Below are positions 10,355 through 13,910 of a stretch of 64,000 nucleotides of DNA, one piece after another (the stretch's first letter is position 1; each line of letters opens with the position of its first letter). The notes under the pieces are model-generated. The model saw only the letters and a list, made by a program, of their open reading frames with translations. It had not been told where the DNA came from and searched no databases. Source of the DNA: Candidatus Dactylopiibacterium sp. (lineage in GTDB: Bacteria > Pseudomonadota > Gammaproteobacteria > Burkholderiales > Rhodocyclaceae). A program made the position numbers and the translations under genes. The DNA lies in assembly GCA_031119555.1 (NCBI GenBank), contig JAVHXQ010000003.1, positions 1 through 64,000 of the forward strand, written 5' to 3'.

Positions 10355-10969
10355 TCAGGCGGCCGCCGCGAGCTTCGCTTCGGCGCTGGCGAGGTCGGCA
10401 TAACCGTAGAGCCGCGCGGTGTGGTCCATCGCGATCGTCGTGAGGTTGTCGCCCCGCGCGCGGAGGTCGGCGATCATCTGCCGGTAGGCGCCCAGCGTGG
10501 CTTCGGAATAGGTGCCGAGTTCGCCGCGCAGGTAGGTCTCGAAAGAGGTGCCCCAGGGCGTGTCCTCCTCGGTGCGGATCAGGCGCGCCTGGCTGGACAT
10601 GTGCGGCCATTCGCGCGCGAAGGCTTCGCGCCAGGCGAGCTGCTGCGCGATGATTTCCTCGATGGTGGCGAGCTGCCCCGGGTTCAGCGCGGGCAGGGTG
10701 TGCGCGAAGGTCGCGTACTGTGCCGGCGCGGTGGAGGCCATCATGCGCGCGTACTTCTCCTGGATCAGGTTGCGCCCGGCCAGCGTGGCCCGCAGGAGGT
10801 CGTTGTAGTACGCGTCGCGCGTGGCCGCGTCCCAGCTCAGGAACTGGCTCTTGCGCATGATCTCGAAGGTGCCGAAGTCGTCCTGGCAGTCGGCGCGACC
10901 GCCCTCGTTGCGGACCTTGTCGAAGGCGCGCCATTCGAGCGCGATGATTTCGTCGATGAGAGTGCTCAT
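10355..10969 (-). CDS. DUF4125 family protein
   Basis: 204 aa, soluble, predicted mainly helical. It starts MSTLIDEIIALEWRAFDKV and contains QDDFGTFEIMRKSQF and YLRGELGTYSEATLGAY, blocks I associate with DUF4125. No catalytic motif is recognised and no function is established. It is the last gene of a three-gene operon, 6 nt after the DUF4037 stop; such neighbours suggest it acts with the nucleotidyltransferase-like protein and the TPR scaffold. Confidence 0.75.
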   Translation of the reverse strand: MSTLIDEIIALEWRAFDKVRNEGGRADCQDDFGTFEIMRKSQFLSWDAATRDAYYNDLLRATLAGRNLIQEKYARMMASTAPAQYATFAHTLPALNPGQLATIEEIIAQQLAWREAFAREWPHMSSQARLIRTEEDTPWGTSFETYLRGELGTYSEATLGAYRQMIADLRARGDNLTTIAMDHTARLYGYADLASAEAKLAAAA

Positions 10970-10975
10970 GGTCGT

Positions 10976-11860
10976 TCAGGCGGTGTGGCCGAGAATGGCG
11001 TCTACGTGGGTTTCGAGAAAGCCGTCGCCGGGGCGCGTGAGGCCATGGGCGATGAGGGCGGCGAGCGCTTCGGCGCAGATCGTTTCGACGAGCGCAGGGG
11101 CGGCCCCGGGCGGCGTGCGCGCGAGCTGGGCGAGGCGCGCGTGCAGGGCGGGCTGGCTGGCGAGCCCCGCCGTACTGCGATGCAGCCATTTGTCGTGCGG
11201 CGCGTAACGGCGCTCGAGCGCATGGGCGAGCAGGCAGCTGTGGCGCAGGAAGTCCGCCTGGGCCAGCAGCGCGGCGGCGTCCTCGCCCCGCGCCAGTGCG
11301 CGCGGCAGGTTGTACTGCCCGCTTTGTGCCATCTTCGCGGCGGCCTGGGCGAGCTTGCGCCGGCGCACGCCCTCCGGGTAATACGCGGCGAGCTGCGCGC
11401 GGATCGCACTGAATGCCCCCGCCGGGTCTTCGAAGACCTCGCCATTCACGGCGGCGGCGAGCAGGGGTTCGGGAATCTGCAACCAGTCGGCATCGCTGAT
11501 CGGCAGTTGCGGCGCGCCGAGAAAGCGGCTGTAGAAGCCCGACAGCGAGAACACGCCGACGCGCTGACCCGCGCGCGGGCTCGCGATGCGCGGGCCGAAG
11601 CCTTCGAAGCGGGCGGGCAGCGCATCGTAGGCCGCCTGCAGGGCCGGGCCGATCGCGGCGAAATCGGCGTCGCCCAGCCACACGCAGAAGCCCGGGCCGA
11701 AGTCGTGGTCGCGCGAGAGTGCGTCGTCGAAGCCGAAGCACTCCGAGCCGTGGCCCACCAGCCCGGCCGCCGCGCGGGGCCGCCAGGCCTCGAAGCCGGC
11801 GAAGAGCGTGTCGCGCCAGGCGTGGTAACAGCGCCGCGCGAGCGCGAGCCCGGTGCTCAC
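10976..11860 (-). CDS. DUF4037 nucleotidyltransferase-like protein
   Basis: 294 aa. The N-terminal part has the hallmark of polymerase-beta-like nucleotidyltransferases: a GS motif GHGSE (residues 36-40) and, 11 residues later, an acidic pair D51-H-D53 in SRDHDFG. The rest is helical and carries RRRKLAQAAAKMAQSGQYNLPRAL and LLAHALERRYAPHDKWLHR, typical of DUF4037. Keeping GS and DxD suggests a catalytically competent NTase, perhaps modifying a protein, RNA or small molecule. The start overlaps the TPR gene stop by 4 nt (ATGA-type), indicating coupled translation. Confidence 0.78.
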   Translation of the reverse strand: MSTGLALARRCYHAWRDTLFAGFEAWRPRAAAGLVGHGSECFGFDDALSRDHDFGPGFCVWLGDADFAAIGPALQAAYDALPARFEGFGPRIASPRAGQRVGVFSLSGFYSRFLGAPQLPISDADWLQIPEPLLAAAVNGEVFEDPAGAFSAIRAQLAAYYPEGVRRRKLAQAAAKMAQSGQYNLPRALARGEDAAALLAQADFLRHSCLLAHALERRYAPHDKWLHRSTAGLASQPALHARLAQLARTPPGAAPALVETICAEALAALIAHGLTRPGDGFLETHVDAILGHTA

Positions 11861-12708
11861 CGCAGGGTGGCCTGGATGGCCTGCGCCTCGGCCTGGAGTT
11901 CCGCCGCGCGCGCGGGTTCGAGGGCTTCATAGACCGTGGCCAGGCTTTCGAGCGTGACCGCGTAGTACTGGTTCTTGCCGTAGTGCGTGTGGATCTCGCC
12001 CAGCGCGCGTTCGTAGAAGCGCACGGCATCCTGCAGGCGTCCCTCGCGATAGGCGACCTCGCCCAGGCCGGCGAGGGCGGCGCCGTAGTGCGAGTTGCGC
12101 ACGGGCTGGCCTTCGAACAGCCGCACGGCCTGCGCGAGGTCTTCGCGCGCCTCGGCGAGCTGATCCAGCCGCAGGCGCGAGAGCGCGCGGTTGGTGCAGG
12201 TCACGGCCTGGTCGACCTCGCTGCCCGGCCGGCTTGCCACCAGCGGCAGAGCCTGATCCAGGCACGCGATGGCCTTGGCGTGCTCGCCCGCTTCCTGGAA
12301 GGCGAGGCTGAGGTTGTTGTAGAGGCTGGCAATCAGGTGGGCGTCCTGCACGTTGCGCGCCACGAAGAGGCGGCCGACTTCCTCGAACAGGCCGATCGCC
12401 CTGGCCGTCTGGCCATCGGCGCGGTAGGCCGTGGCCACGTTGAGCAGTGTGGTGGCGTAGGGCACCGAGTCCTTGTAACCCATGGCTTCCATGAGCCCCA
12501 GGGCTTCGTCTCCGGTTGCGAGCGCTTCCTTGAAGCGGCTCATGCCACGGTAGAAGCCCATGAGTTCGTTGAGCAGCGTGAGCACCGCGCTGCGGTCGGC
12601 GGCGGCGCGCGCGACGGCGAGATGGCCGAGCAGGAAGGGCTCGACCTGCGCGATCTGCTGGTTGCGGAAAAGACTGTCCAGTTCCTGCAGGATGTTCTGC
12701 ACGTTCAT
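11857..12708 (-). CDS. Tetratricopeptide-repeat protein, head of DUF4037/DUF4125 operon
   Basis: 283 aa built of about six TPR-like helix pairs, such as TTLLNVATAYRADGQTARAI, ASLYNNLSLAFQEAGEHAKA and AALAGLGEVAYREGRLQDAV. No signal peptide is seen, so it is probably cytosolic. TPRs mediate protein-protein contacts, so a scaffold or substrate-recruiting role for the two downstream proteins is likely. It is the first gene of the operon, with 177 nt separating it from the divergent ParD-like gene. Confidence 0.8.
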   Translation of the reverse strand: MNVQNILQELDSLFRNQQIAQVEPFLLGHLAVARAAADRSAVLTLLNELMGFYRGMSRFKEALATGDEALGLMEAMGYKDSVPYATTLLNVATAYRADGQTARAIGLFEEVGRLFVARNVQDAHLIASLYNNLSLAFQEAGEHAKAIACLDQALPLVASRPGSEVDQAVTCTNRALSRLRLDQLAEAREDLAQAVRLFEGQPVRNSHYGAALAGLGEVAYREGRLQDAVRFYERALGEIHTHYGKNQYYAVTLESLATVYEALEPARAAELQAEAQAIQATLR

Positions 12709-12885: not shown

Positions 12886-13113
12886 ATGGGAATCGTCAAG
12901 ATCTCCGACGCCATGCATGGCAACCTGCGGCTGGCGAGCGCGGCGCTGAGCCGCTCCATCAATGCCCAGGCCGAGCACTGGCTGCGCGTGGGCATGCTCG
13001 CGGAACTCAACCCGGCGCTGAGCTACCCCGAAATCTGCCAGCTCCTGCTGACGGCCGAGGGAGGCGAGCTGTCGGCGCGCGCGCCGGAATTGCCGGAATC
13101 CGAGGCCGCATGA
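12886..13113 (+). CDS. ParD-like antitoxin-family protein
   Basis: 75 aa from ATG 12886, with GGTGA 5 nt upstream. The sequence MGIVKISDAMHGNLRLASAA then LSRSINAQAEHWLRVGMLAE fits the ParD-like family: an N-terminal beta strand followed by two helices as in ribbon-helix-helix regulators. There is no ParE-type toxin next to it; instead the methionine aminopeptidase gene follows with a 4-nt overlap. It may be a dedicated transcriptional regulator of this operon. AT-rich direct repeats sit right upstream. Confidence 0.75.
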   Translation: MGIVKISDAMHGNLRLASAALSRSINAQAEHWLRVGMLAELNPALSYPEICQLLLTAEGGELSARAPELPESEAA

Positions 13114-13910
13114 TGCTCCGACGCCAGATTCCGCTCCATGCCGAAGCCGGCATCGCCGCCTCGCGTGAGGCCGGCCGGCTCGCGGCGCGCGTGCTCGAGA
13201 TGATCGGCCCGCACGTGCAGCCCGGCGTGACGACCGACGAACTCGACCGCCTGTGCCACGATTTCATCGTGCACGAACTGCATGCCGTGCCCGCCAACAT
13301 CGGTTATCACGGCTACCCCAAGACCATCTGCGCCTCGGTCAATCACGTGGTGTGTCACGGCATTCCGTCGGGCAAGCGCCTGCATGCCGGCGACATCGTC
13401 AATATCGACGTGGCGCTCATCAAGGACGGCTGGTTCGGCGATACCAGCCGCATGTTCTTCGCGGGCGAGCCGTCCATCCTCGCGCGCCGCCTCGTGCGCA
13501 CGACGCACGAAGCGATGATGGCCGGCATCGCGCGGGTGCGCCCGGGCGCCACGCTCGGCGACGTGGGGCATGCGATCCAGACCGTGGCGCATCGCGAAGG
13601 GTTCTCGGTGGTGCGCGAATACTGTGGCCACGGCATCGGCCGCGTGTATCACGACGAGCCGCAGGTCCTCCACTATGGCCGCGCCGGCGAGGGGCTGCGC
13701 CTGGAGGCCGGCATGATCTTCACGATCGAACCGATGATCAACGCGGGCAAGGCCGGCACGCGCGTGCTGCCCGATGGCTGGACGGTGATCACGCAGGACC
13801 GCGCGCTCTCGGCGCAGTGGGAGCACATGGTGGCGGTGCGCGAGGATGGCTGCGAGATCCTCACGCCGTGGCCCGACGGTGAGGGCGAGTACGCCGCCCG
13901 GGCGGCCTGA
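13110..13910 (+). CDS. map: Type I methionine aminopeptidase
   Basis: 266 aa cytosolic metalloprotease removing N-terminal Met. The five metal ligands are visible: D100, D111, H174, E207 and E238, in NIDVALIKDGWFGD, CGHGIG, FTIEPM and QWEHM. The N-terminus RRQIPLHAEAGIAASREAGRLAARVL fits type I enzymes. ATG 13110 overlaps the ParD-like stop by 4 nt. The essential map gene usually sits near rpsB in this group, so this may be a second, specialised copy; that needs the rest of the genome. Confidence 0.9.
   Translation: MMLRRQIPLHAEAGIAASREAGRLAARVLEMIGPHVQPGVTTDELDRLCHDFIVHELHAVPANIGYHGYPKTICASVNHVVCHGIPSGKRLHAGDIVNIDVALIKDGWFGDTSRMFFAGEPSILARRLVRTTHEAMMAGIARVRPGATLGDVGHAIQTVAHREGFSVVREYCGHGIGRVYHDEPQVLHYGRAGEGLRLEAGMIFTIEPMINAGKAGTRVLPDGWTVITQDRALSAQWEHMVAVREDGCEILTPWPDGEGEYAARAA

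Follow-up and report, generated by a model that had tools for sequence, protein, structure and literature searches.

Nucleotidyltransferases (NTases) with a polymerase-beta-type fold are described as carrying two catalytic acids on one strand and a third on another, strand 5 (PMC11646218). In the MntA/HepT system, MntA is reported to place three AMPs on a tyrosine of HepT by means of a GSX10DXD motif (PMC7641770). A census of HEPN domains files DUF4037 with Aminoglycoside_NT_C, gives no conserved Rx4-6H for it, and remarks in its table that the domain is "occasionally fused to TPRs" (PMC3710099). DUF4125 is absent from the main text of the census, and neither a triple fusion nor a pair of NTase subtypes was found in the portion consulted (PMC3710099). 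Genes for DUF4125 and DUF4037 proteins lie side by side, as LrcL and LrcM, in a limonene ring-cleavage operon (lrcLMABC...), and both are expressed as protein (PMC12583861). That operon differs from the locus described here in being catabolic and in having the DUF4125 gene first; the available part of the account mentions no TPR and assigns the two proteins no function (PMC12583861). The accessible portions of the literature naming DUF4037 or DUF4125 yielded no test of function, and a literature search for a nucleotidyltransferase-tetratricopeptide fusion in Lachnospiraceae found no report.

The present locus comes from a freshwater bacterium and lies in a window of 64,000 nucleotides (the whole stretch of DNA that was analysed), where three genes on the minus strand form a tight operon (Table 1). 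An AGGAG is found upstream of the TPR gene start, the start of the NTase gene overlaps the TPR stop by 4 bases, and 6 bases separate the NTase stop from the DUF4125 start. The original prediction had described three overlapping or abutting reading frames, with positions that proved exact, and its numbering of GHGSE (36-40) and D51-H-D53 in the NTase is correct. The DUF4125 domain (PF13526) covers residues 3-197 of its protein at 254.5 bits, against a curated cut-off of 25, and DUF4037 (PF13228) covers residues 126-226 only of the middle protein, at 111.5 bits against a cut-off of 22.1. The NTase half, residues 1-125, has no significant Pfam match, and neither NCBIfam nor PHROGs gave a match for the NTase or the DUF4125 protein. 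A genome search of the organism itself returned one match for DUF4125 and one for DUF4037. Recent acquisition of foreign DNA was considered from base composition and dropped, the operon having 70.2% GC against 69.8% for the window.

Table 1. Features of the three-gene operon, with positions in the window.
Feature	Position	Strand	Remarks
TPR protein, 283 aa	12708..11857	-	ATG start; first gene of the operon; TPR_12, E 5.4e-26 (Pfam)
NTase with C-terminal DUF4037, 294 aa	11860..10976	-	GTG start; DUF4037, E 3.8e-32
DUF4125 protein, 204 aa	10969..10355	-	ATG start; Pfam E 8.1e-76
NTase motif G36-H-G-S39 ... D51-H-D53 (GSX11DXD)	11702..11755	-	From sequence and alignment
R100-x-G102-V-F of the NTase	11549..11563	-	Third-carboxylate place; E or D in most lone DUF4037 relatives
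DUF4125 conserved stretch N21-EGGRA-x-C28-Q29 and R39	10850..10912	-	From alignments; model confidence is lowest at residues 21-30

The TPR protein, the NTase/DUF4037 protein and the DUF4125 protein almost certainly make up one functional unit. Scanning 84,980 species by pattern, with a single genome per species, gave 474 stretches encoding a relative, of which the best 80 were kept; 73 of these (L030-L102), drawn through the DUF4125 patterns, lie outside the genus, at 48-56% identity and mostly in Lachnospiraceae. Two loci, L067 and L085, were set aside where the contig ends just upstream, leaving 71 that are informative. DUF4037 and DUF4125 share one polypeptide in 60 of these 71 loci, again mostly from Lachnospiraceae and from the best 80 of the 474, and for this reason the three genes represent no chance neighbourhood. 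All three parts are a single protein in 53 of the 71 (counting L092, at a contig edge), and six more have the NTase and DUF4125 in one chain at a locus cut by a contig end (L033, L058, L068, L076 and L100) or a run of Ns (L046), which were counted as NTase-DUF4125 fusions with the TPR part not judged. A TPR gene precedes an NTase-DUF4125 fusion in one locus, a TPR-NTase fusion is followed by a DUF4125 gene in nine, the three genes are separate in one, and in one (L094) the TPR part is fused to DUF4125 without the NTase. Order and strand are constant among the 71 wherever both neighbours are visible. Because the parts are so often welded into one protein in gut bacteria, the three genes of the window are very probably one machine, and the proposed module of three proteins is borne out by repeated gene fusion in a mostly fixed order. 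Within the genus, the TPR and NTase parts are fused in L012, L013 and L014 but are two genes in the window and in L015-L018; a TPR-NTase fusion is also found in Fusobacterium. In the Fusobacterium vincentii copy, an Abi_2 (abortive-infection-like) gene (L011:7061-7972, E 1.1e-39) sits between that fusion and DUF4125.

Co-occurrence was also followed by profile search in 299 genomes from the phylum of genome G434. DUF4125 is present in six of them, including G434 itself as the chosen centre, and in all six the TPR and NTase parts are fused or adjacent to it. In the reverse direction, nine genomes of the same sample have a strong DUF4037 match, six with DUF4125 and three without; of the latter, one has a TPR and an NTase, one a module-type NTase alone and one a lone-subtype DUF4037. 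A TPR and NTase pair with no adjacent DUF4125 was seen at L156:4746-6489, where the flanking genes resemble polyamine synthesis genes by eye. In another genus of the same family as the window (L019), DUF4125 precedes the NTase by about 1.4 kb and no TPR was found at the locus. The genome of L094 (G440) holds a module-type NTase on a separate contig (L155), away from its TPR-DUF4125 fusion, which may be a different permutation of the module parts or an assembly fault. The expectation of conserved co-occurrence in order therefore stands in the main (60/71 fused; 6/6 in the profile sample) and fails in places, given a reverse order in two loci, one TPR-DUF4125 fusion with its NTase elsewhere, and the absence of DUF4125 from three of nine genomes.

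DUF4125 is found in 8/8 genomes of the genus (Uliginosibacterium, own genome included), 1/17 other genomes of the family and 0/16 of the order, and the whole module in all eight Uliginosibacterium genomes searched. Across the phylum DUF4125 occurs in one of 398 genomes, the organism's own, and DUF4037 in three, two of which are weak matches (E 4e-7 and 5e-7). The closest named relatives in the species scan include Uliginosibacterium aquaticum and U. gangwonense. DUF4125 was single-copy in each of the nine genomes searched by way of the loci (one being a member of the genus already counted), three of which have a second, much weaker DUF4037 match. In a plasmid collection DUF4125 matched a single record, from Fusobacterium, which at 2.1 Mb has the size of a chromosome, and among viral contigs the pattern scan gave 10 pattern matches, none of them a DUF4125 relative. 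A FastTree phylogeny of 80 tips, including the window, was rooted arbitrarily on L019 and omitted L023-L029, which are the same records as L012-L018. In each of the three trees (joint, NTase, DUF4125) the eight Uliginosibacterium copies group as a single clade; clostridial sequences, Fusobacterium, L118-L121 (from the phylum of G434) and L019 make up the remaining tips. Supports along the path range from 0.41 to 1.0, and the DUF4125 tree places the Uliginosibacterium clade differently from the joint tree. This mix of tips suggests that the module may have moved between phyla, in a sampling that favours window-like DUF4125.

The middle protein appears from its predicted model to have a two-domain layout of the ANT(4') type, with an NTase domain followed by a HEPN-like helical domain. 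An alignment of 58 of 70 NTase stretches plus the window (59 rows, 41% mean column identity) was used for the prediction, which has a pLDDT of 95.8. The model aligns with ANT(4') kanamycin nucleotidyltransferase (1kny, 6un8, 6p01) at Z 12.3-12.6 and rmsd 6.1-6.3 over 237-240 residues, the best covering residues 1-294 at Z 12.6, rmsd 6.3 and 239 residues, although Z below about 13 can reflect a mere common arrangement in helical proteins. The C-terminal part aligns with HEPN domains, as in sacsin (Z 10.4, rmsd 2.4, 107 residues). On the predicted model the NTase fold is thus supported, with ANT(4') matched over the full length. With Foldseek, no PDB entry reached E <= 0.001 (best 3.3e-3, with ANT(4') at 3.7e-3), and a sequence-profile search of the PDB found no NTase. 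Identity to ANT(4') is 8-9%, and the module NTases differ from it in having no acid conserved where the third carboxylate aligns. The match to ANT(4') agrees with the listing of DUF4037 in the relevant part of the HEPN census (PMC3710099).

Sixteen NTase residues are invariant in all 59 rows: G36, G38, S39, D46, S49, D51, H52, D53, R100, G140, Q179, N184, R187, R191, K224 and W225. The GS and DxD residues said to be intact are therefore invariant, and the spacing GSX11DXD is common to all rows, the window included. At the third-carboxylate place, inferred from the alignment and a predicted strand at 102-105, the module NTases have G102 in 58/59 rows, with R100 in 59/59. Lone DUF4037 proteins could be read at this place in nine cases, eight from plasmid records and one from a clostridial genome, with E in seven, D in one and H in one; 22 loci were given for this comparison, of which L159-L162 had no match at 1e-5, and a second L163 fragment was not counted. 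Q182-x-N184 is present in the module NTases (58/59 and 59/59 rows) and absent from the lone proteins. By sequence, DUF4037 comprises at least two subtypes, module and lone, since G102 in the one stands against E or D in most of the other. The lone genes (L020-L022, L158, L163-L167) come from rhizobial, Xanthobacter, Streptomyces and Klebsiella plasmids and, for L158, from a genome of the phylum of G434; several have transfer or transposase genes nearby. The module-type NTase may still be catalytic; the third carboxylate is missing, and activity is therefore not assured.

The module resembles MntA/HepT in joining a pol-beta-type NTase that carries a GS...DXD motif to a helical partner. It differs from the system as described there in its GSX11DXD rather than GSX10DXD spacing, in having the HEPN-like part within the NTase chain and with no conserved RX4-6H, in having DUF4125 as the partner, and in the extra TPR protein (PMC7641770). 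Across the 59 NTase rows the Rx4-6H of HEPN RNases is not conserved: the window has R217-x4-H222 and R206-x6-H213, position 222 is Y in 40 rows, H in nine and F in eight, and from position 120 onwards H exceeds 20 rows at window position 175 alone (26/59). A separate HEPN gene beside the NTase gene, as in HEPN-MNT pairs, was not found, the partners by Pfam being TPR and DUF4125.

The description of DUF4125 as helical agrees with its predicted model, which is all-helical with a pLDDT of 93. Confidence is lowest at residues 21-30 (61), and this segment, which holds NEGGRA-x-CQ, is probably mobile. The DUF4125 alignment (65 of 77 stretches plus the window) has 68% mean column identity, and 19 residues are identical in 12/12 rows, the window included: E12, W13, F16, A26, C28, Q29, F35, R39, D57, N67, K72, Y73, M76, R129, Y146, E150, T158, N175 and G189. 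Conservation of so many polar residues suggests that there is an active site or a ligand site, and not packing alone. Foldseek with the DUF4125 model gave nothing at E <= 0.001 against the PDB (best 2.5), and a viral library nothing at E <= 0.001; the sole VIA-align row above Z 5 is a designed protein (Z 6.5, rmsd 1.8, 63 residues), and the best profile match to PDB sequences is partial, at E 0.054. No relative of the fold is recognised by these searches, which say nothing on whether the fold is new. As to a remote HEPN, there was none among the 33 aligned chains listed with Z >= 2 and no HEPN match in the Pfam scan. That DUF4125 is the most conserved part of the module (68% vs 41%) was dropped as unproven, since DUF4125 patterns had served to choose the loci. 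Seven members were reached by other routes; in these, percentage identity with the window copy is greater for DUF4125 than for the NTase in L117 (49 vs 34%), L118 (45 vs 35%) and L011 (36 vs 34%), equal in L120 (41%), and lower in L119 (39 vs 41%), L019 (34 vs 42%) and L121 (36 vs 43%).

The surroundings of the module vary. Clustering of all called genes revealed no constant partner, the largest non-module cluster reaching 16 of 82 loci, and in Pfam and NCBIfam tallies of the 131 nearest neighbours (one per side, >= 90 aa, L030-L102) no family exceeds 9/131 (GGDEF). Searched against 12-17 kb around each of the seven other copies in the genus (E <= 1e-20, half of the query), the window's first 30 kb gave no match for the genes that immediately flank its module. 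L014 shares a block at 21.8-25 kb of the window (9-12 kb from the module) at 58-70% identity, along with a TetR match that is weak (39%); the surroundings are thus partly shared by one relative at least. Divergent from the module in the window, a ParD_like antitoxin gene (12886-13113) overlaps an M24 peptidase gene (13110-13910) by 4 bases. Judged by eye, the genes adjoining the module in L120 are presumably for aldehyde/alcohol dehydrogenase and PduL-like proteins, and those near it in L121 for aldehyde dehydrogenase and NADH dehydrogenase subunits. PADLOC gave no match for the NTase or DUF4125 at E <= 1 and, for the TPR protein, only a generic TPR model (27.7 bits); defence-model matches account for at most 8 of the 131 nearest neighbours. 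With no constant neighbour, few defence-model neighbours and no viral DUF4125 relative, the defence role suggested in the original prediction gains no support.

The most likely reading of the whole mechanism, at a probability of roughly 40%, is a regulated NMP transferase for which the TPR and DUF4125 proteins select or provide the target. The NTase would use G38-S39 and D51/D53 to bind NTP and Mg, and would transfer NMP to a hydroxyl of a target other than an aminoglycoside. The TPR arm may hold or sense a protein partner, as scaffold or sensor, and DUF4125 could present the acceptor, or complete or regulate the active site. Such a role would account for the close linkage of DUF4125 and for the polar residues that are invariant in it (C28-Q29, R39, K72-Y73, R129 and E150), and the overlapping genes or fusions may serve to keep the parts at a 1:1:1 ratio. 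Against this reading, the third carboxylate is absent (G102 in 58/59 rows), DUF4125 is not strictly needed (3/9 strong-DUF4037 genomes do without it), and no neighbour gene points to a pathway. The NTase placed apart in G440, the reversed order in L019 and the limonene operon, and the weak Foldseek result also count against it. The exceptions to gene order, the partial synteny with L014 and the relative conservation of DUF4125 have no bearing on the choice between mechanisms.

Two other readings are serious rivals. It is possible, if doubtful, that the module is an internal switch, the NTase nucleotidylylating DUF4125 itself (at Y73 or Y146, for example) to toggle its activity, with the TPR protein receiving the signal. 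The two tyrosines are present in 12/12 DUF4125 rows and the NTase-DUF4125 linkage is close (60/71 informative loci among the best 80 of 474), and the three AMPs reported on a tyrosine of HepT set a precedent (PMC7641770); but DUF4125 has no HEPN match in Pfam and no known activity, TPR-NTase genomes without it exist, and the motif spacing is X11, not X10. Rather unlikely, though still to be taken seriously, is a loss of NTase catalysis in which nucleotide binding gates an enzyme activity in DUF4125. The third carboxylate has become Gly in 58/59 rows, an Arg stands two residues before it in 59/59 and in 9/10 module-type rows of the lone-subtype comparison (L157 has S), and eight of the nine readable lone proteins retain E or D, yet GS and the two DxD aspartates never vary in the 59 rows, which is unusual for a dead enzyme. 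By analogy with GlnE and GlnD, in which opposed activities share one protein, a two-step regulator can be imagined in one chain, where the TPR part would sense a partner, a two-carboxylate NTase would attach a nucleotide, and DUF4125 would be a second catalytic domain, of a novel type, that accepts, removes or passes it on; this is improbable.

Small-molecule inactivation, as by an antibiotic resistance enzyme like ANT(4'), is very unlikely on present evidence. The fold resemblance and the plasmid location of lone DUF4037 genes speak for it; to our knowledge, however, no ANT has a TPR arm or a DUF4125, the module occurs as one copy per genome in 8/8 genus members, DUF4125 is single in 9/9 further genomes (one genus member repeated), and its sole match in the plasmid collection is a chromosome-sized record. 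The scarcely more than marginal chance of an anti-phage or toxin-antitoxin type module draws on membership in the superfamily of the MNT antitoxins and on the Abi_2 gene inside the Fusobacterium copy. It is set against the PADLOC result for the NTase and DUF4125, the few defence-model neighbours (<= 8/131), a viral pattern scan without a DUF4125 relative, and the presence of a single copy in all eight genus members.

The locus brings together, in a single machine whose chemistry can be tested, two domains of unknown function that had stood apart. Expression, pull-down and structural studies are made easy by the single-chain forms that occur in nature, such as L073 (779 aa). An active NTase would make the module a candidate system of regulated nucleotidylylation in gut anaerobes; with an inactive one, it would be a nucleotide sensor descended from an ANT-like enzyme.
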